DNA of 64,000 nt from Solwaraspora sp. WMMD406 (GTDB taxonomy: Bacteria > Actinomycetota > Actinomycetes > Mycobacteriales > Micromonosporaceae). Positions 40,047 to 55,681 of this stretch are shown in pieces. Each line of letters starts with the position of its first letter. Position 1 is the stretch's first letter. Location of the stretch: the NCBI RefSeq assembly GCF_029626025.1, contig NZ_JARUBF010000001.1, positions 6,294,001 to 6,358,000 of the forward strand, read 5' to 3'. A program made the translations under genes and the position numbers. Under the pieces are notes generated by a model, which saw only the letters and a program-made list of their open reading frames with translations, did not search any database and was not told the DNA's origin.

Positions 40047-40469
40047 GTGAGGCGACTGGGTGACCTCGAACGCGCCGTGATGGACGTGCTGTGGGATCGC
40101 GATCCGACGGCCGGCCCGGTCACGGTCCGCGACGTCGCCGAGGCACTGCGCGAACGCGACCTCGCCTACACGACGGTGATGACCGTGCTCGACCGGCTCG
40201 CCGGCAAGGGCATGGTCAGCCGCGAACGCTCCGGCCGGGCCTGGCACTACCAGCCGGTGGCCAGCCGGGAGGCGTACATCGCCCAGCTGATGCTCGACGC
40301 GCTCGACCTCGCCGGCAGCCGGGACGCGGCGCTGGTGCGGTTCGCCAAGTCGGTGACCGGCACCGAGGCCGAGGTGCTGCGGACCGCGCTCACCGAGCAG
40401 GCCCGACCGGCGGATGACGACGCACAGCCGGCCCAACGGCGGGCCCAGCCGGCGGAGCGGCAGGGCTGA
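40047..40469 (+). CDS. blaI: BlaI/MecI/CopY family repressor
   Basis: A 140-residue winged-helix repressor: GDLERAVMDVLWDRDPTAGPVTVRDVAEAL, TTVMTVLDRLAGKGMVSRERSGRAWHYQPVASREAYIAQLM cover the HTH and dimerisation parts typical of BlaI. In this family a membrane M56 peptidase cleaves the repressor or signals its inactivation. The two downstream ABC genes and the M56 gene are placed in the same operon. Start GTG 40047; the dyad upstream suggests autoregulation. Confidence 0.9.
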   Translation: MRRLGDLERAVMDVLWDRDPTAGPVTVRDVAEALRERDLAYTTVMTVLDRLAGKGMVSRERSGRAWHYQPVASREAYIAQLMLDALDLAGSRDAALVRFAKSVTGTEAEVLRTALTEQARPADDDAQPAQRRAQPAERQG

Positions 40470-40476
40470 GCCGGTG

Positions 40477-41436
40477 ATGGCACCCGCCACCCACTTCGCC
40501 GCAGCGGTGCTCGCGTGCTATCTCGTCGCCCAGGCGATGACCCGCTCCGCCTGGCTCGGTCGGGCGTGGACGTGGCGCACGCCCCGGCTGGCGATCCTCT
40601 GCTGGCAGGCGTTGGGGCTGTCCGTCGGACTCGCCGCGATCGGCCTGCCGCTCTCCCTCGGACTCGCCCCGTACCAGGCCGGGCCGGGCACCGCGACGCT
40701 GCGTTTCCTGCGCGACCTGGCCGGCGCGGGCACCTCGCTGCTCGGTGGACACGGCTGGCCCGCCGACGCCTTCCCCACCGGCCTCGGTCCGCCCCGGCTC
40801 GCCCTGATCGCGCTGGCCGCGACGATCGCCGTGGTGCTGCTCGGCTCGACCGTACGCAGCCTGTCCGGCGCCGTACGGGTCCGGCGCCGCCACCGCGACC
40901 TGCTGACCCTGGTCGGCCGGGCCGATCCGGCGGTACCCGGCGCGTTGGTCCTCGACCACCCGAGCGCCGCCGCCTACTGCCTGCCCGGCGTACGCCCGAC
41001 CGTCGTGGTCAGCGCCGGCACCCTCGCCCTGCTCGACGCGAGACAACTGGCCGCGGTACTCAGCCACGAGCGTGCCCACGCCGACGAACGCCACGATCTG
41101 GTGCTGCTGCCGTTCACCGCGCTGTGCCGGGCGTTGCCCCGGGTCGCCTGGCTGCGGGCCGCGCACGACTGCGTCGCGCTGCTGGTCGAGATGCGCGCCG
41201 ACGACAAGGCCCGCCGGCAGCACGCCGACGAATCGCTCGCCGCCGCGCTGCGCCGCTTCGCGACGGCCGATTCACGGATCGTTCCCGCTGGCGCGCTCGG
41301 CGTCGCCGACCGGGACCTCGACGCGCGGGTCCACCGACTGCTCTGGCCCGGTCCGGCTCCCCGGCTGCGTCCACTGGCCGCCAGTGCCGTGGCGATGCTG
41401 CTGCTCGCCCTGCCGGTGTCGCTCTACCTGAGCTGA
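40477..41436 (+). CDS. M56 family membrane metallopeptidase (BlaR1-like, no sensor domain)
   Basis: A 319-residue membrane protein with a cytoplasmic gluzincin domain: AVLSHERAHADERHDL is the HExxH motif. Four hydrophobic helices are seen (near residues 1-20, 35-60, 100-125 and 300-318). The extracellular penicillin-binding sensor domain of true BlaR1 is absent, as in most actinobacterial M56 proteins. Presumed to relieve repression by the preceding BlaI. The ATG at 40477 (or GTG 40474) follows the blaI stop by a few bases; its stop overlaps the next ATG (TGATG). Confidence 0.87.
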   Translation: MAPATHFAAAVLACYLVAQAMTRSAWLGRAWTWRTPRLAILCWQALGLSVGLAAIGLPLSLGLAPYQAGPGTATLRFLRDLAGAGTSLLGGHGWPADAFPTGLGPPRLALIALAATIAVVLLGSTVRSLSGAVRVRRRHRDLLTLVGRADPAVPGALVLDHPSAAAYCLPGVRPTVVVSAGTLALLDARQLAAVLSHERAHADERHDLVLLPFTALCRALPRVAWLRAAHDCVALLVEMRADDKARRQHADESLAAALRRFATADSRIVPAGALGVADRDLDARVHRLLWPGPAPRLRPLAASAVAMLLLALPVSLYLS

Positions 41437-43229
41437 TGGAGACCGCCACCGCGCCCCGGCGCCGCCCCTTCGACCCCCGGCTGGTGCGACACGTGCCGGC
41501 CGTACGGCGACAGCTGGGTACGCTCGGGGCGCTCGGGGTCCTCACCGCCGGGTTGATCATCGCGCAGGCGACCGCGCTGGCTACCGTGCTGGCCGCCGCC
41601 GCGCAGGGCCGACTGGACCGACCCGCGCTCGGCGCGTTCGTGCTGATCGTGGCCGCGCGCGCGGCGGTGGTCTGGGCACAGGGTCTGATCGCCGCCCGGG
41701 CCGCCGCAGGCGTCAAGGCGCGGTTGCGGATCGACCTGCTGGCGGCGATCCAGCGACACGGCCCGGGCTGGCTGTCCGGGCAACGGACCGGCCGGCTGGC
41801 CACCCTCACCGGACGGGGGCTCGACGCCCTGGACGGCTACTTCACCGGTTACCTGCCGCAGCTGGTGCTCAGTGTGACCGTACCGGTGGCGGTCCTCGCC
41901 CGGCTGGTCTTCGCCGACTGGAGCTCGGCGCTGATCGTAGCGGTCACGCTGCCGCTCATCCCGATCTTCGGGGCGCTGCTGGGCTGGCACGCCCAGGCCG
42001 CGACCGAACGGCAGTGGCATCGGCTGAGTCAGTTGGGCGGCCACTTCCTGGACATGGTCGCCGGCTTGGCGACGCTGCGGGCGTTCGGCCGCGAACGCGG
42101 ACAGATCGACGTGGTCCGGCGGATGGCCGACCGGCACCGGGTCGCCACCATGGGCACGCTACGGATCGCCTTCCTGTCCGCGTTGGTGCTGGAGCTCGTC
42201 GCCACGTTGGCGGTGGCGTTGGTGGCGGTGCCGATCGGGCTACGGCTGCTCGGCGGCGGCATCGCCCTGCAGACCGCGCTGCTGGTCCTGCTGCTCACGC
42301 CGGAGGCGTACCTGCCGCTGCGGGCCGCCGGCAGCCGCTTCCACGCCAGCATGGAAGGGCTGACGGTCCTCGACGAAGCCCTGACCCTCACCGCGACCAC
42401 CACCACCGCGACCGCAGCCACCGCCACCGCCACCGCAACCACCGTCACGACCGAGTTCGCCGACGGCCCGGCCGAGCCGGACCGGTCCGCCGTGGTCAGG
42501 CCGGTCCCGGCGGCGACCCCCCCGACTGGCCCGGCCCCGCCGTTCCCGGTCGAGGAAATCAGGTTCGAGTCGGTCACCGTCGAATACCAGCGGACCGTCG
42601 CGCTGCGCGACGTCTGCCTGACGGTACGGGCCGGCGAACGAATCGCCGTGATCGGGCCGAGCGGGGCCGGCAAGAGCACGCTGCTCGCGCTGTTGCTCGG
42701 CTTCGTCCGGCCCACCTCCGGTCGGATCCTGATCGACGGCGTCGACCTGGCCACGCTCGACCTCGACCGGTGGCGCCAGCAGCTGGCGTGGGTGCCGCAG
42801 CACGCCCACCTGTTCGCCATGTCGCTGACCGGCAACATCACACTCGGCGTACCGTCGGCTCCCCCGTCGCGGATCGCCGCCGCCGTACGGGCCGCCGCGC
42901 TGACCGACGTCGTGGCCGCCCTGCCGGACGGGCTCGACACCCAGCTGGGCGAACGCGGCTACGGCTTGTCCACCGGTCAGCGGCAACGCGTGGCCCTGGC
43001 CCGGGCCTTTCTGCGCGACGCCCCGGTGGTGCTGCTCGACGAACCGACCGCCCGCCTCGACGCCACCTCGGAGGCGGCCGTGCTGACCGCGTCCCGGCGG
43101 CTCGTCGAAGGCCGGACCGCGCTCGTCGTCGCGCACCGGCCGGCGTTGCTCGACGGCGCCGACCGGATCATCCGGGTCGACGCCGCACTGGTCACCGAGC
43201 GCCACCGGCTCAGCGGAGCGCCGACATGA
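41436..43229 (+). CDS. cydD: Thiol reductant ABC exporter CydD
   Basis: A 597-residue half-transporter of the CydDC type that exports glutathione/cysteine or other low-molecular-weight thiols and is needed for bd oxidase assembly. Five to six membrane helices occupy residues 30-310, and the ATPase has Walker A GPSGAGKST, Q-loop WVPQHAHLF, signature LSTGQRQR and Walker B VVLLDEPTA. An Ala/Thr-rich low-complexity linker (about residues 320-345, TTTTATAATATATA) joins the two domains. The ATG overlaps the M56 stop (TGATG), and the stop overlaps the cydC ATG (ATGA). Confidence 0.9.
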   Translation: METATAPRRRPFDPRLVRHVPAVRRQLGTLGALGVLTAGLIIAQATALATVLAAAAQGRLDRPALGAFVLIVAARAAVVWAQGLIAARAAAGVKARLRIDLLAAIQRHGPGWLSGQRTGRLATLTGRGLDALDGYFTGYLPQLVLSVTVPVAVLARLVFADWSSALIVAVTLPLIPIFGALLGWHAQAATERQWHRLSQLGGHFLDMVAGLATLRAFGRERGQIDVVRRMADRHRVATMGTLRIAFLSALVLELVATLAVALVAVPIGLRLLGGGIALQTALLVLLLTPEAYLPLRAAGSRFHASMEGLTVLDEALTLTATTTTATAATATATATTVTTEFADGPAEPDRSAVVRPVPAATPPTGPAPPFPVEEIRFESVTVEYQRTVALRDVCLTVRAGERIAVIGPSGAGKSTLLALLLGFVRPTSGRILIDGVDLATLDLDRWRQQLAWVPQHAHLFAMSLTGNITLGVPSAPPSRIAAAVRAAALTDVVAALPDGLDTQLGERGYGLSTGQRQRVALARAFLRDAPVVLLDEPTARLDATSEAAVLTASRRLVEGRTALVVAHRPALLDGADRIIRVDAALVTERHRLSGAPT

Positions 43230-45049
43230 ACGGCGGAACCGACACGCGCGGCGGGCCGGTGATCCGACAGTGGTGGCGGCCGGAGCGGACCGTACTCGCC
43301 GTCGCCCGGCCCTACCTGCTCCGGCTGGTCGGTGCCGGGCTGCTCGCCGCCGCGACGGAACTGGCGGCGCTGGCCCTGATGGCGACCGCGATCTGGTTGC
43401 TGATCACCGCCGCCGGCCGGCCGCCGCTGGACGCGATCACGGTGGCGATCGTCGGCGTACGGGCGCTGGCGATCAGCCGGGGCGTGTTGCGCTACACCGA
43501 GCGACTCGCCGGGCACGACGCCACGTTGCGGGTGGTTACCGACGTACGGGCGCGAATCTTCGCCGCGCTCTCCACCCGGCGGGCCACCACGGCCGACCGG
43601 TCCGGGGACGCGCTGAGCCGGCTGGTCTCCGACGTGGAGGCCGTCCAGGACCTGCTGCTCCGGGTGCTGGTGCCGGGTACGGCCGCAGCGGTGGTGGCGG
43701 TGCTGGCGGTGGCCGGGGCGGCGGTGATCAGTCCGGCCGCGGCGGTGATCCTGGCCGTCGGGCTCACGGCCGCCGGTGTCGTGCTGCCGCTGGCGGCGCT
43801 GGCACTCACCCGCCGTACCGCCGATCGGGTGGCCCCGCTGCGCGGCGCGCTCGCCGCCGACACCACCGATGTGATCCACGGCGCCGCCGACCTCGCCGCC
43901 TTCGGTGCCACCGCGACCGCGCTGGCCCGGACCACGACGCGCGTCCAGGAGCTGGCCCGGCTGGAACGGCGGCTGGCGGCGACCGGTTGGGCCGCCGACG
44001 CGGCCGGCGTGCTGATCGCCGGGCTGACCGTGGCCGGGGTGGCGGTCGGCGCGCTGCGGGCGGACGTGGACGGTGTCTTGGTCGGGGTGCTCGCGGTCGG
44101 CAGCCTGGCTGCGGTCGAGATGACCTTGGCGCTGGTCGCCGCCGTACGCCAGTGGGCGCAGCTGCGCGGCGGCCTGCGGCGGGTGGCCGACCTGCTCGGA
44201 CCGGCCGACCTGGCCGGACCGGCCGACCTGGCCGGACCGGCCGAGGACGCTCCGTCGGCGGGATCCGAGGCACCGGCGAGGGCGGCTGAACCAGTGGAGG
44301 TGCAACTGGACGGGGTCTCGGTGCGTTACCGGCACGACGCCCCGGCGGCCGTGGCCGACATCGACCTGCGGCTACCGGTGGGACGCCGGATCGCGGTCGT
44401 CGGACCCAGCGGAGCGGGCAAGAGCACCCTGCTCGCGCTGCTGACCGGGGCGCTCCCACCCAGCACCGGACAGGTCAGGATCGACGGTCGGGACCTGGCC
44501 GGCATACCGGTCGACCATCGGCATCGGCTGGTTGGCGGACTGCTCGCCGAGGCCTACGTGTTCAACGCCACAGTTCGCGACAACCTGCTGCTCGCGCGCC
44601 CGACCGCCGACGACAGCCAACTCGCGGCGGCTACCGAGGCCGCCGGGCTGCTGGACTGGATCCGGGAGCAGCCGGACGGCTGGCAGACCCTGGTCGGGGC
44701 CGCTGGCGGTCAGCTCTCCGGCGGCCAACGCCAGCGGCTGAACCTGGCGCGGGCGATGCTGGCCGGTCCGGCCGTACTGGTACTGGACGAACCGACCGAG
44801 GGCCTCGACCCGGCCGCCGCCGACGACGTGCTGGCCAGGGTCCTCGCCGCCGCCGGCCGGCGCACCGTCGTCCTGGTGACCCACCGGCTGAGCGGACTGG
44901 AGTCGATGGATGAGATCCTGGTGCTGGACGCGGGTCGCGTCGTCCAGCAGGGCACCCATGCCGCGCTGGTCGACCGGCCAGGTTGGTACCAGGACCAGTG
45001 GATCATGCAGCAGGCAGCCGAACAGGGATACCTGACGGTTTCAGATTAG
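43226..45049 (+). CDS. cydC: Thiol reductant ABC exporter CydC
   Basis: A 607-residue half-transporter, partner of CydD. Membrane part at 30-320 (LLRLVGAGLLAAATELAALAL, etc.); ATPase with Walker A GPSGAGKST, signature LSGGQRQR, Walker B VLVLDEPTEGLDP and switch His LVTHRLSG. A short tandem repeat (PADLAGPADLAGPAED, 18-bp DNA units) lies in the linker. The cydAB oxidase genes that normally precede cydDC are absent here, so the oxidase (if any) must be elsewhere. Last gene of the blaI operon. Confidence 0.9.
   Translation: MNGGTDTRGGPVIRQWWRPERTVLAVARPYLLRLVGAGLLAAATELAALALMATAIWLLITAAGRPPLDAITVAIVGVRALAISRGVLRYTERLAGHDATLRVVTDVRARIFAALSTRRATTADRSGDALSRLVSDVEAVQDLLLRVLVPGTAAAVVAVLAVAGAAVISPAAAVILAVGLTAAGVVLPLAALALTRRTADRVAPLRGALAADTTDVIHGAADLAAFGATATALARTTTRVQELARLERRLAATGWAADAAGVLIAGLTVAGVAVGALRADVDGVLVGVLAVGSLAAVEMTLALVAAVRQWAQLRGGLRRVADLLGPADLAGPADLAGPAEDAPSAGSEAPARAAEPVEVQLDGVSVRYRHDAPAAVADIDLRLPVGRRIAVVGPSGAGKSTLLALLTGALPPSTGQVRIDGRDLAGIPVDHRHRLVGGLLAEAYVFNATVRDNLLLARPTADDSQLAAATEAAGLLDWIREQPDGWQTLVGAAGGQLSGGQRQRLNLARAMLAGPAVLVLDEPTEGLDPAAADDVLARVLAAAGRRTVVLVTHRLSGLESMDEILVLDAGRVVQQGTHAALVDRPGWYQDQWIMQQAAEQGYLTVSD
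44203..44243. repeat. 18-bp tandem repeat in cydC
   Basis: In-frame repeats of GACCTGGCCGGACCGGCC (two full copies plus part) encode the DLAGPA repeats in the CydC linker. Confidence 0.7.
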
Positions 45050-45175
45050 GTTGAGCCGAGACGGGGTGCGGGCAGCCGCCTGGACCACCGGACCACTAGG
45101 GTGTGCGCAGAGTCACCCACCCGACAGGCCAGGTCCGGGTCGGGCGCCGTCACCGGAAGACAAACGGAGGTCAGC

Positions 45176-46162
45176 GTGGCCAAGTCGCCGAACCGGCCCA
45201 ACGCCGACGGGCTCGCAGCCCAGTCCCCCGAGATCGACCCCGACGCAACGTCCGACGCGGCTACCGCCGACGCCGACGACGACGTCGAATCGGCTGTCGA
45301 CTCGGCGGAGACGGGCTCGTCTTCACGCACCGAATCGTCCGCTGACCGGTCACTGTGGCGCGACGTACGGATCGATCCGGTGGAGATCGCGCTGCCGGCC
45401 GGCGTCGGATACACGCTGCGCGCCTATCGGCCGTCCACCGAACTGACCCCCACCGACATCTCCGAACGTGAGGAAGACGACCCGTTCGCCGCCCGTCGCC
45501 GCGCCGCCGAGGCATCCGAAGACGACGAGGACGAAACGGTCGTCATCCTCGACGAGGAGTTCGCCGCCGCACTCGCCGAGGAAGAGGCCGCCGAAAAGAA
45601 GCCGGCCGGCGGTGAGCGGGCCAGCGACGGCGAGGTGGACGCGGACGACGAGGCCGACACCGAGGCCGACGCCGGCGAGGAGGTCCCCGTCTTCCTGACC
45701 CACCGGGGCAACCTGCTGTTGTTCAAGAACCCGCAGGCGCTGGTGAGTTTCGTACGCTCGGGCGCGCCCAACGACCTCGACCAGCTCGACACCTGGCCCG
45801 AGCTGGTCGAACGGCTGCAGCCGGCGGACGTCGAGGCCCTGCCGGAAGACACCTACGAGCTCGATCTCGTCGTGGAGAACCTCCGTGGCGGGCACGACGT
45901 GTGGGACGCCCCGTTGCTGATCCAGTCGGGCGAGGTCGCCCGCGACCTCGCCTACGCGCTGCGCATGCCCTCGGTCCTCGAGATGCTCTCCAGCGGTTCC
46001 AGCCTGGACGATCTCGACGAGGCGCTAAGGTCGACGGTCGACGGCGGCATCGGCGGGTTCATGGCTCGACGGCGCCTCAAGAAAATCGGGGCACAAACGG
46101 CAAGTCTCGGGTGGCGCACGATTATCGGGAAGATCTCTGCCGCTGCGGACTGGCGCGACTGA
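45176..46162 (+). CDS. Conserved Micromonosporaceae-type protein of unknown function
   Basis: A 328-residue protein. The first 190 residues are strongly acidic and low complexity (SPEIDPDATSDAATADADDDVESAVDSAE). The C-terminal domain, from VPVFLTHRGNLLLFKNPQALVSFVRSG to IGKISAAADWRD, is globular. Such proteins are sometimes labelled primase- or primosome-related in databases, but no primase motif is visible and I would not use that name. GTG 45176 has GGAGG five bases before it. Followed at 61 bp by the conservon-module gene on the same strand. Confidence 0.6.
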   Translation: MAKSPNRPNADGLAAQSPEIDPDATSDAATADADDDVESAVDSAETGSSSRTESSADRSLWRDVRIDPVEIALPAGVGYTLRAYRPSTELTPTDISEREEDDPFAARRRAAEASEDDEDETVVILDEEFAAALAEEEAAEKKPAGGERASDGEVDADDEADTEADAGEEVPVFLTHRGNLLLFKNPQALVSFVRSGAPNDLDQLDTWPELVERLQPADVEALPEDTYELDLVVENLRGGHDVWDAPLLIQSGEVARDLAYALRMPSVLEMLSSGSSLDDLDEALRSTVDGGIGGFMARRRLKKIGAQTASLGWRTIIGKISAAADWRD

Positions 46163-46223
46163 CCCTTACCAGGGAGCATCAGTTCTTGGCACATGGCAGG
46201 TGTCCCGGGAGGAGGACGGCGCA

Positions 46224-48686
46224 GTGGCGCTCGTGCGGGTGTACTGCGGTCTGGCAACGGCGGACCGGTCTACCCGGTCGGCTCCGGCTGGTCCGGCCCT
46301 GACCGCCGCGATAGTCGACGACGCCGGACGGCTGCTCGACCTCCGCGAGATCGGGGACGATCCGGCTGGCTACGCCCGGCTCGGTACCCTGCTCGTGGAG
46401 CGCTCCAGCGGCCCGAGCGGCGCGGCGATCGCCGCCGACAGTGACGATCATCTGGTCACCTCCCTGCTCACCGCCGCCGGTCGCCCGCTGGCCATCGCCG
46501 ACGACGATGCCGCCGACGACTACGCCGAGCGCTTCGCCGACGACGAGTCGTTGGAGGAGATGTCCGCGCCACAGGCGCTGCGGCGAGCGATCGGCTTGGC
46601 CAGAGCGCTCCAGGCCGGTGCGTTGTCAGCCGTCACCCTGCCTGCTCCGCGTGACCTGGTCGCCTACAAGCCGGTGCTGGCCGCCCACTCGGCTCTGGCC
46701 AACGGACGCCTGGCCGCCGCGGTCGCGCTACGCGAGGTTCTCCGCGAGCTCTACCCCGCTGCCCTCCGGGCTTATCCGGATCCGGCCGATCCGGTCGCGC
46801 TCGCCGTACTGGACGCGCTTCCCGAGCCAGGCATGCTCAGTGGCACCAGCTCACGTAACCGCGAACTGTCGGTCGCGGCCGACGCGGTCGCGGCCCATCT
46901 CGCGGCCGACGGCGTCGCTGACGCCGGGACCATCGACGACGCGGTGACCGCGCTGCGGGTGGCGATCGTCGAATCGCCCCGACGGAGCGTGGTCAACAAG
47001 GCCCTCACCTCCGCCACCGCCGAGACGGTCCGGCATGCGGTCGCCGCCGTCCGGTCCTGCGACGCCGCTGCGGACGCCCTCGTCGCCACGCTGGCCGCCC
47101 GGGTGACCACTCCGACCCCGCTGAGCGCCCGGCGAACGGTCCGCCGATCCGCCGATCCGACCTCCGGCCCGCCCGCGACCGGTCTACACGCCGTACCGAC
47201 GGTCGATCCGGAGCAGGCACCCGGCCGGCAGCCGGCCGGCAGCCGCCGGGCCCAACCGCAGCCGGTCAGCGCGACCGGGTCGATCATGACTCCGCAACCG
47301 ATGACGACTCCGCCGGTGGCTCCAGCCCCGGTCGCCCCACCGCCGATGGCCCCGACCCCGCTGACGCCAGCGGCTCGGCGTACCGACATCGGCGGCGACC
47401 GGCCGGTGTCCGCACCACCGCCGCCCCCCGGCATGACGCCGATGCCGACGCCCCGGCCGCAGCTCGCTCCGGCGGACGCCGGGGAGCCGTTCCGGGCCAC
47501 TCTCACCACTGCGGCGCTCAACGACGCACGCGCGCAGCGTCGGCCGACTCCGATCACGCCCCGTCCCAACACTCGAGGCGGTACGGGCCCAGCCGCCGCG
47601 CCGATGTCCGGAGCGCCGATGTCCGGAGCGCCGATGTCCGCACCGCCGGTCTCCGGTGCCCCGGTGTCGGCCAGCCCGGTGTCCGGACCGCGCGTGCCGA
47701 CCGCCCCGGTCTCGTCGGCCCCGGTCTCCTCAGCGCCTATCTCGTCGGCGCCGATCTCCAGCGCTCCGCCCACTGCGCCGTCGAACGGGCGTTTCTCCGC
47801 CACCGACTACACCCTGCCGGTCCCCGCGCCGCGTCCGGGCCCGGCCGGGCCCCCGGGGTCACGGTCCAATTGGCCGCTGGTCGCCCACGCCAACGACGAG
47901 ACCCCCGCCGGCCCGGTCGGACCGTCCCCGTACGGGTCGCGTGACGAGCACCGTACCGCTGTACCCGCTGGGTACGGATCAGCTGAGCAGCCACCGGGCG
48001 GGACCGGGCACACCGGGCGGGTCAAGCCACCGTGGCTCGCCGACGACCTGCCGCCCGAGCCACCGGTGCTGCGCCTGGTCGAGCCAAAGCTCGCCGAGCG
48101 CGTATCACGCGACGAATACGGCCGGCCGGCGGAGACGACGCTGGAGGCGCCTGCGCTGCGGCTGGTGGAGCCGGGACAGCCCGATTACGCCCGAGGGGCT
48201 GGCCGGGGCCGACGGGCGGCTCCTGAGCCGTTCAGCGCCCCACCCGTGCCCGACGAGGGTGACGGCGATTTGCTGATCTTCGCGGCAGCCCGGTCGGCCT
48301 GGTTCGTCCGGCAGCCGGAGGAGGCAGACGTCGACTTCACCACGCCGGCGGACACCGGCTGGCGGGCCGCGGAGCAGGCCGCCCAGCCGTCGATCGGTGC
48401 CGAGACCGAGGCTGGTCTACCGAAGCGCGTACCACAGGCCAACCTCGTTCCCGGATCGCCGCTACGCGACGAGCGTCCGCTCCGGATCGTGCGGGACGCG
48501 GCGAGCATCGCGGAGCACACCAACGGCTACTTCCGTGGTTGGCGACGTGGGCAGGAAATCGGCGGATACGCGGTCGGTGGCCGGCCGGGCCGGGAAGCCG
48601 CAGGCGGATGGGACTTCAGCCGGGACCAGAGCGGTCAAGGCGACGGACGCGAGTTCGAGTACCGTCCGGCCAGCTACCAATCCTGA
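46224..48686 (+). CDS. IS110-transposase-like N-domain joined to conservon C-terminal module
   Basis: An 820-residue protein. Residues 1-240 (ALVRVYCGLATADRS, VDDAGRLLDLREIGDDPAGYARL, LLRELYPAALRAYPDPADPVAL) resemble the RNase H-like N-terminus of IS110-family transposases, but the acidic residues expected for catalysis are mostly changed (for instance IDxxK to CGLAT), and the Ser-containing C-terminal transposase domain is absent. A long Pro/Ala/Ser linker (about 300-600) with APMSGAPMSGAP-type repeats follows. The last 120 residues hold [38 protein letters not shown] and YFRGWRRGQE, in the same order as at the end of the conservon kinase ([43 protein letters not shown]). Best read as a domesticated conservon component. 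GTG 46224 has GGAGGAGG upstream. Confidence 0.6.
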   Translation: MALVRVYCGLATADRSTRSAPAGPALTAAIVDDAGRLLDLREIGDDPAGYARLGTLLVERSSGPSGAAIAADSDDHLVTSLLTAAGRPLAIADDDAADDYAERFADDESLEEMSAPQALRRAIGLARALQAGALSAVTLPAPRDLVAYKPVLAAHSALANGRLAAAVALREVLRELYPAALRAYPDPADPVALAVLDALPEPGMLSGTSSRNRELSVAADAVAAHLAADGVADAGTIDDAVTALRVAIVESPRRSVVNKALTSATAETVRHAVAAVRSCDAAADALVATLAARVTTPTPLSARRTVRRSADPTSGPPATGLHAVPTVDPEQAPGRQPAGSRRAQPQPVSATGSIMTPQPMTTPPVAPAPVAPPPMAPTPLTPAARRTDIGGDRPVSAPPPPPGMTPMPTPRPQLAPADAGEPFRATLTTAALNDARAQRRPTPITPRPNTRGGTGPAAAPMSGAPMSGAPMSAPPVSGAPVSASPVSGPRVPTAPVSSAPVSSAPISSAPISSAPPTAPSNGRFSATDYTLPVPAPRPGPAGPPGSRSNWPLVAHANDETPAGPVGPSPYGSRDEHRTAVPAGYGSAEQPPGGTGHTGRVKPPWLADDLPPEPPVLRLVEPKLAERVSRDEYGRPAETTLEAPALRLVEPGQPDYARGAGRGRRAAPEPFSAPPVPDEGDGDLLIFAAARSAWFVRQPEEADVDFTTPADTGWRAAEQAAQPSIGAETEAGLPKRVPQANLVPGSPLRDERPLRIVRDAASIAEHTNGYFRGWRRGQEIGGYAVGGRPGREAAGGWDFSRDQSGQGDGREFEYRPASYQS

Positions 48687-48831
48687 CCGACGGCTGAGCC
48701 AAGCTAGGCCTGACCAATGGCTGGGCCAGTTACCGGGCCTGGCCCAGCTCGGAGGCAAGCGTCAGGCAGCTGTCTCCCGTTCGCGGCCGGACGTCAACCG
48801 ATGGATCGGGTCGACCATACGCGGCTGTCGA

Positions 48832-48865
48832 GATCATCGGTCGACCGAGATCATCGGTCGACCGA
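48832..48865. repeat. 17-bp tandem repeat
   Basis: GATCATCGGTCGACCGA twice in tandem in the 403-bp interval between convergent genes (48687-49089). The interval holds no gene; a hairpin lies at 48924-48951. Confidence 0.65.
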
Positions 48866-48923
48866 AGCGACCATCACGCGGTAGGAAACCAAGCGGATCT
48901 GTCGATATAGCCGTCGCCTCAAG

Positions 48924-48951
48924 CCCTTACGGGCACGCTCGCCCGTAAGGG
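48924..48951. terminator. Bidirectional terminator hairpin
   Basis: CCCTTACGGGC pairs perfectly with GCCCGTAAGGG (48941-48951) with a six-base loop, between the 3' ends of the module gene (stop 48686) and cvnD (stop 49090). Confidence 0.6.
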
Positions 48952-49089
48952 TGGGAATCGTCGGAGCGGTGCGACCGATCCGAGGACGGCGACGAGGCGC
49001 TGCGCGGCGTTACCGGCGACGACACCAGCGTCGCCGGTGATGAGTACCGGCCGAGCCCCGAGCGGACCGGTACGGCCGACCGAGCCCGG

Positions 49090-49698
49090 TCAGGCTGGAG
49101 CGACGGCGCGCTGGCGACGCATCGTCAGCACGTACTCGACCAAGGAGATCAGCACGTGCTTCGTCGATTCGCGGTTCCGCGCGTCGCAGGGGATCACCGG
49201 TACGTCGCTGGAGATCGCCAGCGCGTCCCGGACATCCTGCGGGTCGTGGTACTGCATCCCGTCGAAGCAGTTGATCGCCACCAGGTACGGCAGCCGCCGG
49301 TGCTCGAAGAAGTCGATCGCCGCGAAGCAGTCGGCCAGCCGACGGGTGTCGACCAGCACCACCGCCCCGATCGCACCCCGTACCAGTTCGTCCCACATGA
49401 ACCAGAATCGAGTCTGGCCCGGCGTACCGAACAGGTAAAGGATGAGATCCCGGTCGATCGAAATCCGTCCGAAGTCCATAGCGACCGTGGTGGTCGTCTT
49501 GCCCGGCACCTGTCGCGTGTCGTCGACGCCGACCCCGGCCGAGGTCATGATCGCCTCGGTGGTCAGCGGCGTGATCTCCGAGACCGAGCCGACCAGCGTC
49601 GTCTTGCCGACGCCAAACCCACCGGCGATCACGATCTTCGCCGATGTCACGCGCCCGGCCATGGGGCGGTGCGCCATGTCAGAGCCTGCGAAGTCCAC
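49090..49698 (-). CDS. cvnD: Conservon GTPase CvnD
   Basis: A 202-residue small GTPase of the conservon (DUF742-linked) type. Walker A GGFGVGKTT is at residues 26-34, the switch/DxxG region is LILYLFGTPGQTRF and the base-recognition NxxD is VAINCFDG. It is membrane-associated in Streptomyces conservons, where CvnA-B-C-D form a signalling complex resembling a G-protein coupled system. It overlaps cvnC by 20 bp. ATG 49698; an ATG at 49677 is also possible. Confidence 0.92.
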   Translation of the reverse strand: MDFAGSDMAHRPMAGRVTSAKIVIAGGFGVGKTTLVGSVSEITPLTTEAIMTSAGVGVDDTRQVPGKTTTTVAMDFGRISIDRDLILYLFGTPGQTRFWFMWDELVRGAIGAVVLVDTRRLADCFAAIDFFEHRRLPYLVAINCFDGMQYHDPQDVRDALAISSDVPVIPCDARNRESTKHVLISLVEYVLTMRRQRAVAPA

Positions 49699-50056
49699 TC
49701 AGCACCCTCTCCAGCAGTTCCGTGCCCACCGCGTCATTCGTGTCGTCCAGGGATGTCGGTTCGTATACCGCGACCAGGCCGTCGGAGGCCATGTCCGCGA
49801 TAATGACCCGGGCTACTCCGAGTGGAAGCTGCATCCGCGCCGCGATCTCCGCGAGCGACTGCAGCCGGCCGTCACATAGCGCGGCAATGTATTGGTGCTC
49901 TCGACCGCTGCCGCCCTTTGTCGCGCCTGCGGACCGACCACGCACCGTTGTTTCCACGAGCGCCTCGAGGGCGATCTCCAGCTTCGGCCGGGTACGACCA
50001 CGGGTAACGGCGTACGGCCTGACCAACGCACCCGTCGGCTCATCGCGTTCGGTCAT
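49679..50056 (-). CDS. cvnC: Conservon DUF742 protein CvnC
   Basis: A 125-residue DUF742 winged-helix-like protein: GALVRPYAVTRGRTRPKLEIALEALVETT (split at the middle) and LQSLAEIAARMQLPLGVARVIIADMASDGLVAVYEP are the standard features. Third gene of the conservon. AGGGGG is within 15 bases of the ATG. Role: presumed link between the Roadblock protein and the GTPase. Confidence 0.92.
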   Translation of the reverse strand: MTERDEPTGALVRPYAVTRGRTRPKLEIALEALVETTVRGRSAGATKGGSGREHQYIAALCDGRLQSLAEIAARMQLPLGVARVIIADMASDGLVAVYEPTSLDDTNDAVGTELLERVLSGLRRL

Positions 50057-50173
50057 CTGCCATCACCCCCTCTCGTCCTGCCAACAGCCCCACCCCGTCG
50101 GAGCTCGTCGTGTCGAATTTCGTCAGGTCCACAGCGGCCGGATGCATCCCGGGAGTGGACGTCGTGTGCCGGG

Positions 50174-50578
50174 TCAGCCCAGCATTCCCGCAGCCGTACG
50201 CGGCGCCGGCGTGAGCGCGTCACCGACTCGATCGACCAGTAGCGCCATTTCGTACCCCACCTGGCCCACGTCACTGCTGCGAGCGGCCAGCACCGCGAAC
50301 GACGAGCCGTCCGAGATCGACATGAGGAACAGGAATCCGTTGTCCATCTCGACCACTGTCTGCAGCACAGCACCACCTTCGAAACAGCGTGCGGCACCTT
50401 GTGTGAGGCTGACCAGTCCGGAGGCGATGGCCGCGAGTTGGTCCGCCCGGTCCCGGGGAAGGTCCCGGGACGCCGCCAGGAGCAGACCGTCCGCCGAGAC
50501 CGCGATCGCGTGAGCGACCCCGGGCACGCGGTCGGCGAAGTTGGCCAGCAACCAACCGAGATCCTGCGTAGATGTCAT
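50174..50578 (-). CDS. cvnB: Conservon Roadblock/LC7 protein CvnB
   Basis: A 134-residue Roadblock/LC7 fold protein ([37 protein letters not shown]). It is the likely regulator (GAP-like or MglB-like) of the small GTPase CvnD. Its start overlaps the cvnA stop by four bases, giving tight coupling. Confidence 0.92.
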
Positions 50579-53500
50579 CCCTCATGCTCCTTGCCAGCCT
50601 GCGAGGATTGCTGCCCTCCCGGGGCCGCCCCCGGGTTGGTCGAGTGGTCGTCCTTGGGCTGCGTCCGGCCGCGTTGCACACCACGGTGGTACGCGGACAA
50701 TAGCCCACGGACCGCTTCTGGTGAACGACGCTGTACCGAACTTGTCGCCTTGTCTACGCCACCTGGTACCAGCTGTGCCATCGGGACCCGTTTCGGGAGT
50801 CCCGCCTGGGTCTTTTCGGCTACCGCCACCTCGGCCGCAGCGCTGGCCGCCCGCCAGCCGTCGTCGGCGGCGGTCTGCCAACCGTCCGGCCGGCCGCCGT
50901 CCCGGGAGTTGCCGTCCCGGGAGTTGCCGTCCCGGGAGTTGCCGTCCCGGGAGTTGCCGCCACCGTTGCCGCCGCCACCGGTCGCGACCGGCTCTGGCCG
51001 GCGCGGCAGCCCTGTGCCCGTTCCCGAGCCACTCGCCACGGCGGCCGGTGCCGGCCGAGCGGAGTCCGTGGCCGACTGGGTGGATGCGACCGACGCCGAC
51101 GAGGTCGATGGTGTCATCATCGCTACGGCAGCCTCGCGTGCCTCCTCCGCCGTCGGGCGGCGGGTCCGGAACCACGCGGATTCGAGTTCACGGAAGATCG
51201 GTAGTTCCATGGTCTCGTCCGCGAAGCGTTTGGGCGCTGCGGCGGGAGCGGGCACCGGATGTGGAGCCGAAGCGGGGTTTTCGGCGTCCGAGCGGGTCAC
51301 CCGTGGCAGTTCCGCCGTCATGTCGAGCGCGGCCGCCAACTTCTCCGGCACCGGCGGAGTGACGGCGTCGCGGTCGGCCGCGACCGGCGGCCAGGCCGGT
51401 GGCGCAGAAGCCGGCGGTGCTGCGGATGGCACCACCGTCGGGGGCACCGCCGGTGGTGCCGAACTCGCCGGAACGATCGGATGCTGCGCCGTGGGGGCCG
51501 ACGACGCGGACTGATGAAAGGCCGCCGGATGCTGCTGATTGCCCGCCGACGACGGTGGCACAGGTGGCGCCGAGAACGGTCGTACCGGTGGCGCGGAGAC
51601 CGGTGGGACCGACACCGGTGGCGCGGAGACCGGTGGGATGTACGGCTGTCCGCTGACCGGCTGTCGACCACCGGCACCCGGTGTCTCGGGCGACGTCGGG
51701 ATCTGCCGGGGGATCACGCCACCCGGTGTGCCGCCGGCCACCTCGCCGTCGACCGTCCAGTGGTCGTTCGATCGGCGTTGCGGCAACGGCTCCGTACGCG
51801 ATCCGCCGTTGGTCGGCACGCCGTTGAACATCTCCGAGCCGTTGGCGCCGTTGCTTCCGTTGGCGCCGTTGCTCGCTCCGGTGAGATCCGACCAGGCCGG
51901 CATGGCCCTCGCCGGGGTGGACGGTTTCACCGGACCGCCGCCGTTGACCGGGGCCGGCTCGAACGGACGCGGCGGCGGTCCGATCTGCGCCGGTGGTTCG
52001 GTCGGCGGGCCGAAGCCGGTTCCGGGGCCACCAGGGCCGGTTCCGGGGCCACCGGGGCCGGCCGGGCCGCCGCCTTCGAGCGCCAGCGGCGCGGGGAACG
52101 GTGATCGGGCGGGTGCCGCCGGGGTGTCCGGCCCGGCGGCGCCGAACGCGGCGGGTGCGGTGGTGCGGCCCGCGAGTGCCCGTGGGATGAGCACCGCGGT
52201 CGGCAACGTGACGTCGGCGATGGTGCCCCGTTCGGTAGCCGGCCGCAGCTCGACCTTGACCCCGTGCCGGGCGGCCAGCCGGGCGACCACGACCAGGCCC
52301 ATCATCCGGGACACCGCGACGTCGACCATCGGGGGTGTGGCGAGCCGTTCGTTGAGGTCACGCAACTGCTCGGGGGTGATGCCGATACCCCGGTCCTCGA
52401 CGTAGAGCACCGCCCGGTCACCGACCCGCCGGGCCTCCACCATGACGTGGGAGTCCGGCGGCGAGAAGGCGGTGGCGTTGTCGAACAGCTCGGCGACGAG
52501 GTGGACCAGGTCGTTGACGGCGTGCGCGGAGACCTCGATGTCACGGTCGACGACGCCGAACTCGATCCGGGTGTAGTGCTCGACCTCAGACTGGGCGGCA
52601 CGCAGCACGTCGATCAGGGCAGCTGGCTCGCGCTGCACCCGGGTGGAGTCGGCACCGGCGAGTACCAAGAGGTTCTCGTCGTTACGCCGCATTCGGGTCG
52701 CGAGGTGGTCGAGCTGGAACAGCTCGCCGAGGCGGTCCGGATCCTCCTCGCCGCGTTCCAACCGGTCCAGGTGTCCGATGAGGCGGTCGACCAGGATCTG
52801 TGACCGGCGGGCCAGGTTGACGAACATCGTCGAGACCGACGAACGCAACGCGGCCTGTTCCGCCGCGGTCCGGACGGCCTCCAGGTGAACGGCGTTGAAC
52901 GCCTCGGTGACCTGGCCGAATTCGTCCTTGCTGCGCACCGGCAGCGGCTCGGCGATCTGATTGGCCAGTTGCACCGGGGATGCCTGGGCGGTGACCTGTG
53001 GATCGCGCAGCCGGGCGACGGCCTGCGGCAGGCCGTGCTGAGCCACCGCGAGCGCGCCCTGGCGGAGTTCGCGCAGCGAACGGGCCATCGACCGGGCGAC
53101 CAGCGCGGCGAAGAGGATGGCGAGCAGCAGTACGAACAGCAGCAGGATCGTTTCGACGAGCAGCCGCTGCTGGACGTCGTTACTGAGCACGGTGGCCTCG
53201 TTGACCACGTCGCTGTCGATCTTCTGCTCGACGGTACGGATCAGATCGGCGTGACCGACCAGCGCGGCGTCCCAGGCCTCGGCGTCGAACGGCGTGTTGC
53301 GCATCGACTCTTCGCTCTGGCCACGGATGAAGCCACCGTAGGTGTCCGCCTCACGCAGCGCCGGACCCGCCACGGTCTGGTTGTAGAACTCCAGGTCGTC
53401 CGCTGTCGCGGCGGCTTCGAACGCCTGCCGGGACTGAGCCTGACCGGCCCGGGTGCTGATGTAGTCGGTACGCAGCGCCGGAGTCAGGGCGTCCTGGCTG

Positions 53501-54174
53501 AACGCCCGCAGGACCACCACCCGTTCGCGGGACAGGAACTCTTTGTTGCGGGCGAGCGCGGCGGTGGCCCGCATGTGGTCACTCAGCGCGGTGTCGTTGG
53601 CCAGCTGGGCGGCCGAGTCCCGGATGTCCAGCAGGTCGCTGAGGAGCACCTCGTACGCGCGGGCGGCCTCGGTGAGCCGGAAGGCACCGTCTTCGGTGGC
53701 GCTGTTGACGACCTGGCTGCGCAGGCCGGGAAGATCGGCGAGGTTCTGATCGACTCGGGCGAGCAGATTGCGGAAGTTGACTGGCAGGTCGGTCAGCTCG
53801 GCCCGCCGCTGCGAGTACGGCGTCCGTGATTCGTCGACGGTGCCGTGCAGGGCGTTGTAGGCGTCCAGGTAACGACGCTCGAGTTCCTCGTCCTGCGTAC
53901 CGAGGAGAAGCACGGCGGCGGCGCGCTCGTTCTGCAGGTCGTGGACCAGGTCGCCGGAGGCCCGGGTGAGGGTGGCGAGGGTGTGGGCCTGGCTTGCGTT
54001 GTTGGCGGTCTCGAGGTGGCCGATCAGACCGTTGGTGCCGACGACGATCGTCGCCAGGGTGGGCACGATCATAATCAGACCGAGCTTGGACCAGATCGGC
54101 AGATCGTTAAGCCGGCCAACCGGCCGGCGGAGACGCGACAGGAAGGAGTCTGCCGTCTTCGGCCGCTTGCTCAC
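50575..54174 (-). CDS. cvnA: Conservon sensor histidine-kinase-like protein CvnA
   Basis: A 1199-residue membrane sensor. First TM helix [20 protein letters not shown], an extracytoplasmic nitrate/nitrite-sensing-like (NIT) helical domain, second TM helix [23 protein letters not shown], then HAMP and an HATPase domain ([41 protein letters not shown]). No classical H-box is visible, as in other conservon kinases. The last 480 residues are Pro/Ser/Ala-rich and end with the [15 protein letters not shown] module. Start GTG 54174 (VSKRPKT) follows GAGGAGG; an upstream ATG at 54261 would add 29 residues. Confidence 0.92.
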
Positions 54175-54598
54175 GTCACCGCCCTCCTCATCGGTGCCGG
54201 TCGGATGCACCGGGCACCGCCCATCGGCCGACCCGGGCGGATCGGACCTCCGAGATTCCATCACGACACCACCCAAAGAGAAAGCCCAGGTGGTCAGTCA
54301 CTCGGAGTGTGATGCGATGGTTATCCGGACTTCTAACGATTTGCACTCTCGTGGCTACCGTAAGTAATCGTCCCTGTCCAGAATGTCTCGTTCGCACGCC
54401 GCTACGCTCGCGATGCGCGACGTGCCATCGTACGCCCGGCGGCGACCCGGCGTGCGCGGCGGACATGCCGGATTACGCGGTACCTGACGACCGCGCGTCC
54501 GTCCGGCCGATCCGGCGTCGACCGGACGGCCGGTCGGCAGGCCCCTACCAGGCCTTTGTCAGGGACTGGTCGGCCAGGACCACGGCCGGCGGCCAAGG
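54175..54598. other. 424-bp upstream region of the conservon
   Basis: Contains the cvnA promoter region. A dyad CACTC-G-GAGTG (54300-54310) resembles, at 9 of 11 constrained positions, a BldD-type box; this is weak. An ORF with CxxC pairs (54309-54620) was not accepted as a gene. Near 54330-54360 the DNA is AT-richer, fitting a promoter. Confidence 0.4.
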
Positions 54599-55681
54599 TC
54601 AGGCCAGCAGCTTCGCGTAGCCCGGCTTGATGACGTCGTCGATGATCGCCAACCGCTCATCGAACGGAATGAACGCACTCTTCATCGCATTAACCGTCAA
54701 CCACCGCAACTCCGACCACCCCCACCCAAACGCCTCCACCAACAACCACATCTCCCGCGACATCGACGTCCCACTCATCAACCGATTATCCGTATTCACC
54801 GTCACCCGAAACCGCAAATCACGCAACAACCCGATCGGATGCTCACCAATCGAACCCACCGCACCCGTCTGCACATTCGACGACGGACACAACTCCAACG
54901 GAATCCGCTTATCCCGCACATACGCCGCCAACCGCCCCAACCGCACCCCACCATCCGCACCCACCTCCACATCATCCACAATCCGCACCCCATGCCCCAA
55001 CCGATCCGCCCCACACCACTGAATCGCCTGCCAAATCGACGGCAACCCAAAAGCCTCACCCGCATGAATCGTAAAATGAAAATTCTCCCGCTGCAAAAAC
55101 TCAAAAGCATCCAAATGCCGAGTCGGCGGAAAACCCGCCTCCGCCCCCGCGATATCAAACCCCACCACCCCCGCATCCCGATACCGCACCGCCAACTCCG
55201 CGATCTCCTGCGACCGCGCCGCATGCCGCATCGCCGTCAACAACGTCCCCACCCGCACCACCCGACCCGCCCCCGCCGCCCGCGCACACCCATCCGCGAA
55301 CCCCGCCAACACCGCCTCCACCACCGCACCCAACCCCAACCCCCGCTCAAGATGCTGCTCCGGCGCGAACCGCACCTCCGCGTACACCACCCCGTCCGCC
55401 GCCAGATCCACCGCACACTCCGACGCCACCCGAAACAACGCCGACTCCGTCTGCATCACCGCCACCGTGTGCGCGAACGTCTCCAGATACCGCTCCAACG
55501 ACCCCGAATCCGCCGCCGACACGAACCACCGACCCAACCCCACCGGATCCGCCACCGGCAACACATGACCCACCTCATCGGCCAACTCCACCACCGACTC
55601 CGGACGCAACCCCCCATCCAGATGGTCATGCAACAACGCCTTCGGCGCCCGGACGATCTCCTCAAACGAAACAGCCACCAT
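54599..55681 (-). CDS. add: Adenosine deaminase
   Basis: A 360-residue adenosine deaminase: zinc ligands HDHLDGG (His18, His20) and the [14 protein letters not shown] and NTDN segments are in the usual order. It converts (deoxy)adenosine to (deoxy)inosine in the salvage pathway. The N-terminus is at the ATG 55681; an upstream in-frame extension looks non-coding. The gene stands out by its third codon positions, which are mostly G or T on the coding strand (GGT, GTG, TTG, GCG, TCG) rather than the C/G mix of neighbours. Confidence 0.95.

Follow-up and report, generated by a model that had tools for sequence, protein, structure and literature searches.

An IS110-derived domain joined to a CvnA-type tail suggests conversion of a mobile-element protein into a signalling part beside a conservon

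A fusion gene convergent with a conservon operon

We examined 64,000 nucleotides of the Solwaraspora sp. WMMD406 genome (contig NZ_JARUBF010000001.1, positions 6,294,001 to 6,358,000; hereafter the window), which carry a gene that joins an N-terminal domain related to IS110-family transposases to a C-terminal tail of the type that ends CvnA, the sensor kinase-like protein of conservons (actinobacterial G protein systems, AGPS). This fusion gene lies on the plus strand at 46224..48686 and encodes 820 aa in an open frame that begins with GTG at 46224 (MALVRVYCG). The string MA-VRVYCG is kept across 24 aligned sequences of the crown, the group that includes the window, and a Shine-Dalgarno site, GGAGGAGG, lies 5' of the GTG, so the longer listed frame from 46200 is not likely to mark the start. 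The genome holds a single full-length copy of the gene.

From its N terminus, the protein consists of a RuvC-like domain with an RNase H fold (46233..46643; residues ~4-140), the coiled-coil or helical half of the IS110 module (46650..47114; residues ~143-297), a proline-rich linker (47124..48230; residues 301-669, 369 aa, 22% Pro) that varies in length and sequence among orthologues, the CvnA-type tail (48285..48554; SAWF, GWRAA, AGLPKRVP, YFRGWRRG), and a C-terminal extension (48555..48683), all on the plus strand. The core of this extension, which resembles GGRPGRE...GWDFSRD, is found in 16 of 16 aligned crown-type tails and is absent from the tail of the window's CvnA. The original prediction, made from the letters of the window, had likened the first 240 residues to IS110; the resemblance stands, but it reaches residue ~297 and takes in both the RuvC-like domain and the coiled coil. 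The protein has no hydrophobic window comparable to CvnA's two and is without a membrane segment, and a Pfam scan finds no NIT, HAMP or HATPase_c kinase core in it.

The gene is convergent with a cvnA-D operon, as had been predicted, although the adjoining gene is cvnD and not cvnA. Beyond a convergent intergenic region of 403 bp (48687..49089), in which no Roadblock gene was found, lie cvnD (49090..49698; small GTPase, ATP_bind_1), cvnC (49679..50056; DUF742), cvnB (50174..50578; Roadblock, Robl_LC7) and cvnA (50575..54276; NIT, HAMP, HATPase_c and the C-terminal tail), all on the minus strand, with cvnB overlapping the end of cvnA by 4 bp.

Origin and catalytic state of the N-terminal domain

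Taken alone, the window protein matches nothing in Pfam and NCBIfam scans (hmmscan), and phmmer with the N-domain against PDB sequences gives just two weak matches, to a pentatricopeptide repeat protein and an alpha solenoid protein. The IS110 link therefore rests on Pfam by way of orthologues, on profile searches and on fold. Among 28 orthologues, PF01548 is the sole Pfam family at E<=1e-3 (two members, best 1.2e-10); at E<=1 it appears in 13 of the 28, and 13 other families appear there as well, in one to three members each. The family profile retrieves true IS110 transposases from other members of the phylum (E down to 1.8e-11) and, from PDB sequences, weak acetyl xylan esterase matches only. 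Aligned to IS110 by hhalign, the family scores a probability of 99.4 over 261 columns, against at most 0.28 in 20 column shuffles. The best fold matches of the N-domain are ISCro4 and IS621, with RuvC and Tex/Spt6 folds also among the best. A comparison with DEDD transposases had been set beforehand as a test of the prediction, and the match was found. What carries the kinship is the hhalign result, the search of genomes with the family profile, and the fold, the profile methods being decisive. In a tree with IS110 sequences, the N-domain family groups together with a single intruder, the very long IS110 row L122.

For IS621, a published account (PMC11208158) gives D11, E60, D102 and D105 as each required for recombination and places S241 in the Tnp domain. 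In the window protein, the four acids (D1, E, D3 and D4) have become A11, D72, A118 and R121. Across 28 family members, the D1 column holds A, T or V without exception, D3 is kept in one member and D4 in two, while the E column reads D in 23, E in one and another residue in four; for comparison, the corresponding columns of the IS110 set read D in 26/26, E or D in 27/27, D in 27/28 and D in 27/29 of the rows with a residue. Erosion of the acidic residues had been proposed, and this holds for D1, D3 and D4 but not for the second acid, which is conservatively kept. Several divergent members have a DxxD-like string shifted by one residue, which looks like a remnant. A C-terminal transposase domain was expected to be missing, and the Transposase_20 (PF02371) serine domain indeed has no Pfam match in the window protein; it is present in 8 of 10 distant relatives scanned. 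Given the lost acids and the missing Transposase_20 domain, we infer that the fusion protein is without recombinase activity.

As a separate observation, IS110 frames of 476 and 414 aa are paired, ~2.2 kb apart, in four places of genome G000 (C1:1211371/1213544, 3756780/3758953, 4043676/4045849 and C3:10839/8657), as if they belonged to one element, and three further copies of the first frame (476 aa) are solitary.

The CvnA-type tail and Roadblock genes

The four motifs run co-linearly through the ends of the fusion protein and CvnA, as first noticed in the sequence: SAWF at 691 and 1033, GWRAA at 712 and 1140, AGLPKRVP at 730 and 1158, and Y-F/H-RG at 769 and 1196, respectively. By BLASTP the two tails align at 41% over 73 aa (E 8e-08). 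SAWF lies outside this alignment, and the gap between SAWF and GWRAA is 17 residues in the fusion protein and 103 in CvnA.

A tail model built from 12 tails of both kinds matches five places in the genome at E<=0.01: the fusion gene, the CvnA next to it and three others. The four other than the fusion gene all carry an HATPase and a Roadblock gene and are of CvnA type, which upholds the prediction that the tail is specific to conservons and not a common linker. In a sample of the host's class, the model matches 30 of 79 genomes at E<=0.01. We examined 30 of the 52 matches listed at E<=1e-3, the genome's own five included, and found a Roadblock gene next after the tail in 28 and an HATPase in the examined flank of 22; the two loci without a Roadblock gene are the fusion gene itself and a borderline match (L236). 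This association with HATPase and Roadblock genes marks the tail as a feature of CvnA that goes with cvnB, rather than a generic linker.

In divergent lineages, the fusion gene mostly has a Roadblock gene of its own. Of 16 divergent orthologue regions, 15 have a second Roadblock gene, cvnB2, directly after it (Robl_LC7 E 7.2e-17 and 2.7e-16 in the two tested). The spacing is -4 to 118 bp, and 6 of the 15 have a 4-bp overlap, equal to that between cvnA and cvnB in the window. The CvnB2 proteins form one clade (100/100) separate from 47 other CvnBs, and the presence of cvnB2 is explained by one change on the N-domain tree. One alternative was that the end of cvnA and cvnB had been duplicated locally, recently and in inverted orientation; the depth and separateness of the CvnB2 clade led us to reject it.

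In the crown, 57 of 80 named loci, together with L146 and the window, match Roadblock at one place each, the main cvnB, and the other 23 named loci give no Roadblock match. Seven CvnB-like genes of the host genome match a CvnB2 model; the best is the main CvnB at 102.7 bits, compared with 244.7 for a CvnB2 that is itself in the model.

Conservation within the family

The N-domain (profile A1) is found in 294 of 300 genomes of the host's bacterial family, representing 43 of 44 genera. Its score is strong (E<=1e-43) in 268 genomes and weak (E about 1e-9 to 1e-22) in 26, which comprise two genera and two single genomes. Twenty-two low-scoring genomes, picked for their low score and not at random, were searched again, and 16 divergent regions were examined, nine of them from the 26 weak genomes; in all 16, N-domain and tail lie within one gene. 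For the N-domain, the median ratio of nonsynonymous to synonymous substitution rates (dN/dS) is 0.27 across 276 pairs of 24 sequences; the tail gives 0.32 across 120 pairs of 16 sequences. Both values were estimated by NG86, which is rough at such divergence.

Of 87 loci examined, both the fusion gene and cvnD could be located in 67, the window included; the other 20 are without one or the other, many owing to contig ends. In all 67 the two genes are convergent neighbours, 65-2331 bp apart. Whether the gene always adjoins a cvn operon had been posed as a check; among the divergent regions, cvnA-D is present in 9 of 16, and the other seven have none within ~5-9 kb on either side.

Neighbouring genes and intergenic DNA

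Directly 5' of the fusion gene and on the same strand lies Up353 (45101..46162), separated from it by 61 bp and with a conserved C-terminal part of 158 aa. It occupies this position in all 80 named loci (partial matches counted) and in 15 of 16 divergent regions. The full Up353 protein has a single weak Pfam match, below the cut-off, and its conserved part matches nothing in the window copy, while across 21 members just one match arises, at chance level; a fold model (predicted TM score, pTM, 0.57) has no significant PDB match. A distant paralogue (29%) lies at G000 C1:4537685. Further upstream, at 40047-45049, are two adjacent ABC transporter-like genes, a pair we take to be CydDC-like, preceded by what is presumably a BlaI/M56-like pair.

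The convergent intergenic DNA is poorly conserved in six relatives from the genus, inverted repeats excepted. Five of the genus relatives (L253, L254, L256, L257 and L258) have a common inverted repeat, accggcggcacctg / caggtgccgccggt, between the convergent genes, perhaps a two-way terminator; L255 and the window have different repeats at the same place. The convergent gap is ~1.4-2.3 kb in 28 of the 67 loci, and the six of these viewed (L006, L012, L015, L068, L075 and L009) have long open reading frames between the gene and cvnD, one of which we take to resemble an ABC substrate-binding protein.

Discussion

Our preferred reading, to which we give a probability of roughly 0.6, is that an exapted IS110 half with a CvnA tail serves as a soluble, kinase-free stand-in for CvnA that regulates a Roadblock/GTPase module; a mobile-element protein would thus have been converted to a signalling part, as the data suggest. 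An IS110-family recombinase would have been exapted, most simply once, early in the host's bacterial family. The catalytic residues and the serine (Transposase_20) domain would have been lost, and the RuvC-like and coiled-coil half retained. This half, which may dimerise, sense a ligand or both, would bear the CvnA tail on its proline-rich linker. The tail keeps company with a downstream Roadblock gene even where an unrelated domain has replaced the kinase, which suggests that the tail is a docking site for CvnB-type proteins, and a missing link between CvnA and CvnD. Once docked, the tail would present or sequester the Roadblock regulator of the Ras-like CvnD GTPase. In divergent lineages the partner would be a dedicated CvnB2; crown loci, the window's among them, would no longer have cvnB2, and there the fusion protein probably uses the CvnB of the convergent cvnA-D. 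Synteny and the dedicated cvnB2 thus support, on genomic grounds, the original proposal of a domesticated transposase domain recruited as an extra conservon partner, which had not foreseen the family-wide conservation, cvnB2, or the 7 of 16 divergent lineages without nearby cvnA-D.

Several points weigh against this reading. A Pfam match at E<=1e-3 is confined to 2 of 28 orthologues, the best IS110 match in Foldseek (E 1.8e-3) is followed closely by Spt6 (2.7e-3), and only 6% of bootstrap trees put the family and L122 on one side of a branch. Long branches are flagged in the CvnB tree, and the dN/dS values share the roughness given above. The seven divergent regions without nearby cvnA-D weaken a strict operon link and shift weight to the Roadblock pairing, and the synteny elsewhere could be a frozen neighbourhood. 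A Roadblock search found no cvnB2 at crown loci, which breaks a strict pairing of each tail with its own CvnB in the window itself, and the tail could bind a partner other than CvnB.

Alternatively, the protein might be a decoy, its CvnA tail titrating the neighbouring CvnB off CvnA and its IS110 half merely a dimerising handle. A crown without detected cvnB2 and a tail retained on a protein with neither kinase nor transmembrane segment would suit such a competitor; yet divergent lineages encode their own CvnB2, which a pure decoy would not need, and 7 of 16 divergent loci have no conservon nearby, so we consider it unlikely. Another possibility is a functionless, drifting relic in which an ancient IS110 insertion happened to fuse with a duplicated end of cvnA. 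The origin of the sequence is compatible with this, but it is hardly credible for a gene present in 294 of 300 genomes, strongly conserved at both ends, with dN/dS about 0.27 and conserved start and spacing.

It is also conceivable that the N-terminal half still handles nucleic acid. The dead RuvC and Nop-like coiled coil of a former RNA-guided recombinase might bind RNA and so gate the Roadblock/GTPase module, in which case a retired RNA-guided recombinase would be the RNA-sensing input of bacterial Ras-like signalling. We find this distinctly unlikely: the fold matches to Nop5/56/58 fall mostly on chain residues ~128-298, a stretch that presumably covers chiefly the coiled coil rather than the RNA-binding end, and helical bundles reach such Z scores without kinship. 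An Rfam search of 44000-55500 gave no match at E<=1, the intergenic DNA downstream shows little conservation in the six genus relatives beyond inverted repeats, and the upstream spacer is short. A DNA-binding output, in which the RuvC-like fold would hold branched or duplex DNA without cutting it and bring the GTPase module to the chromosome, draws on the fact that the best structural matches, RuvC, Tex/Spt6 and IS110, are proteins that bind nucleic acid; a tail that comes from a membrane-kinase family speaks against it, and we regard it as highly improbable.

If the stand-in reading is true, an IS110 recombinase was exapted anciently and family-wide into signal transduction, adjoining a conservon, and the C-terminal tail of CvnA gains a testable function. 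In open-access literature, represented mostly by titles, we found no description of this fusion protein and none joining IS110 and conservons; the word transposase is absent from the main text of the conservon papers looked at, PMC13343842 among them.

Like the IS110 recombinases IS621 and ISCro4 (PF01548), the fusion protein has a RuvC-like fold and a following helical or coiled-coil part, but it is without D1, D3, D4 or a PF02371 match, has gained a CvnA tail and, unlike mobile multicopy IS110 elements, is encoded once in full length at a constant locus. Box C/D Nop5/56/58 and TIGR-Tas proteins are also described (PMC12045711) as having a coiled coil after an inactive RuvC-like domain; the fusion protein differs from these in that no RNA-binding end is clearly detected, no guide RNA was found, and a CvnA tail is present. 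CvnE and CvnF (such as CvnF8, with a GAF domain) are, according to PMC13343842, additional input or modulator genes beside cvnA-D that mostly accompany CvnA proteins without sensor domains, CvnF8 acting on the kinase. The fusion gene likewise adjoins cvnA-D as an additional gene, but here CvnA has a NIT domain, the gene is convergent, and its domain is derived from IS110 and not GAF. Unlike CvnA, finally, the fusion protein dispenses with NIT, HAMP, kinase and membrane segment; the two share the motifs of the tail, and in divergent lineages the fusion gene, too, is immediately followed by a CvnB-type gene.
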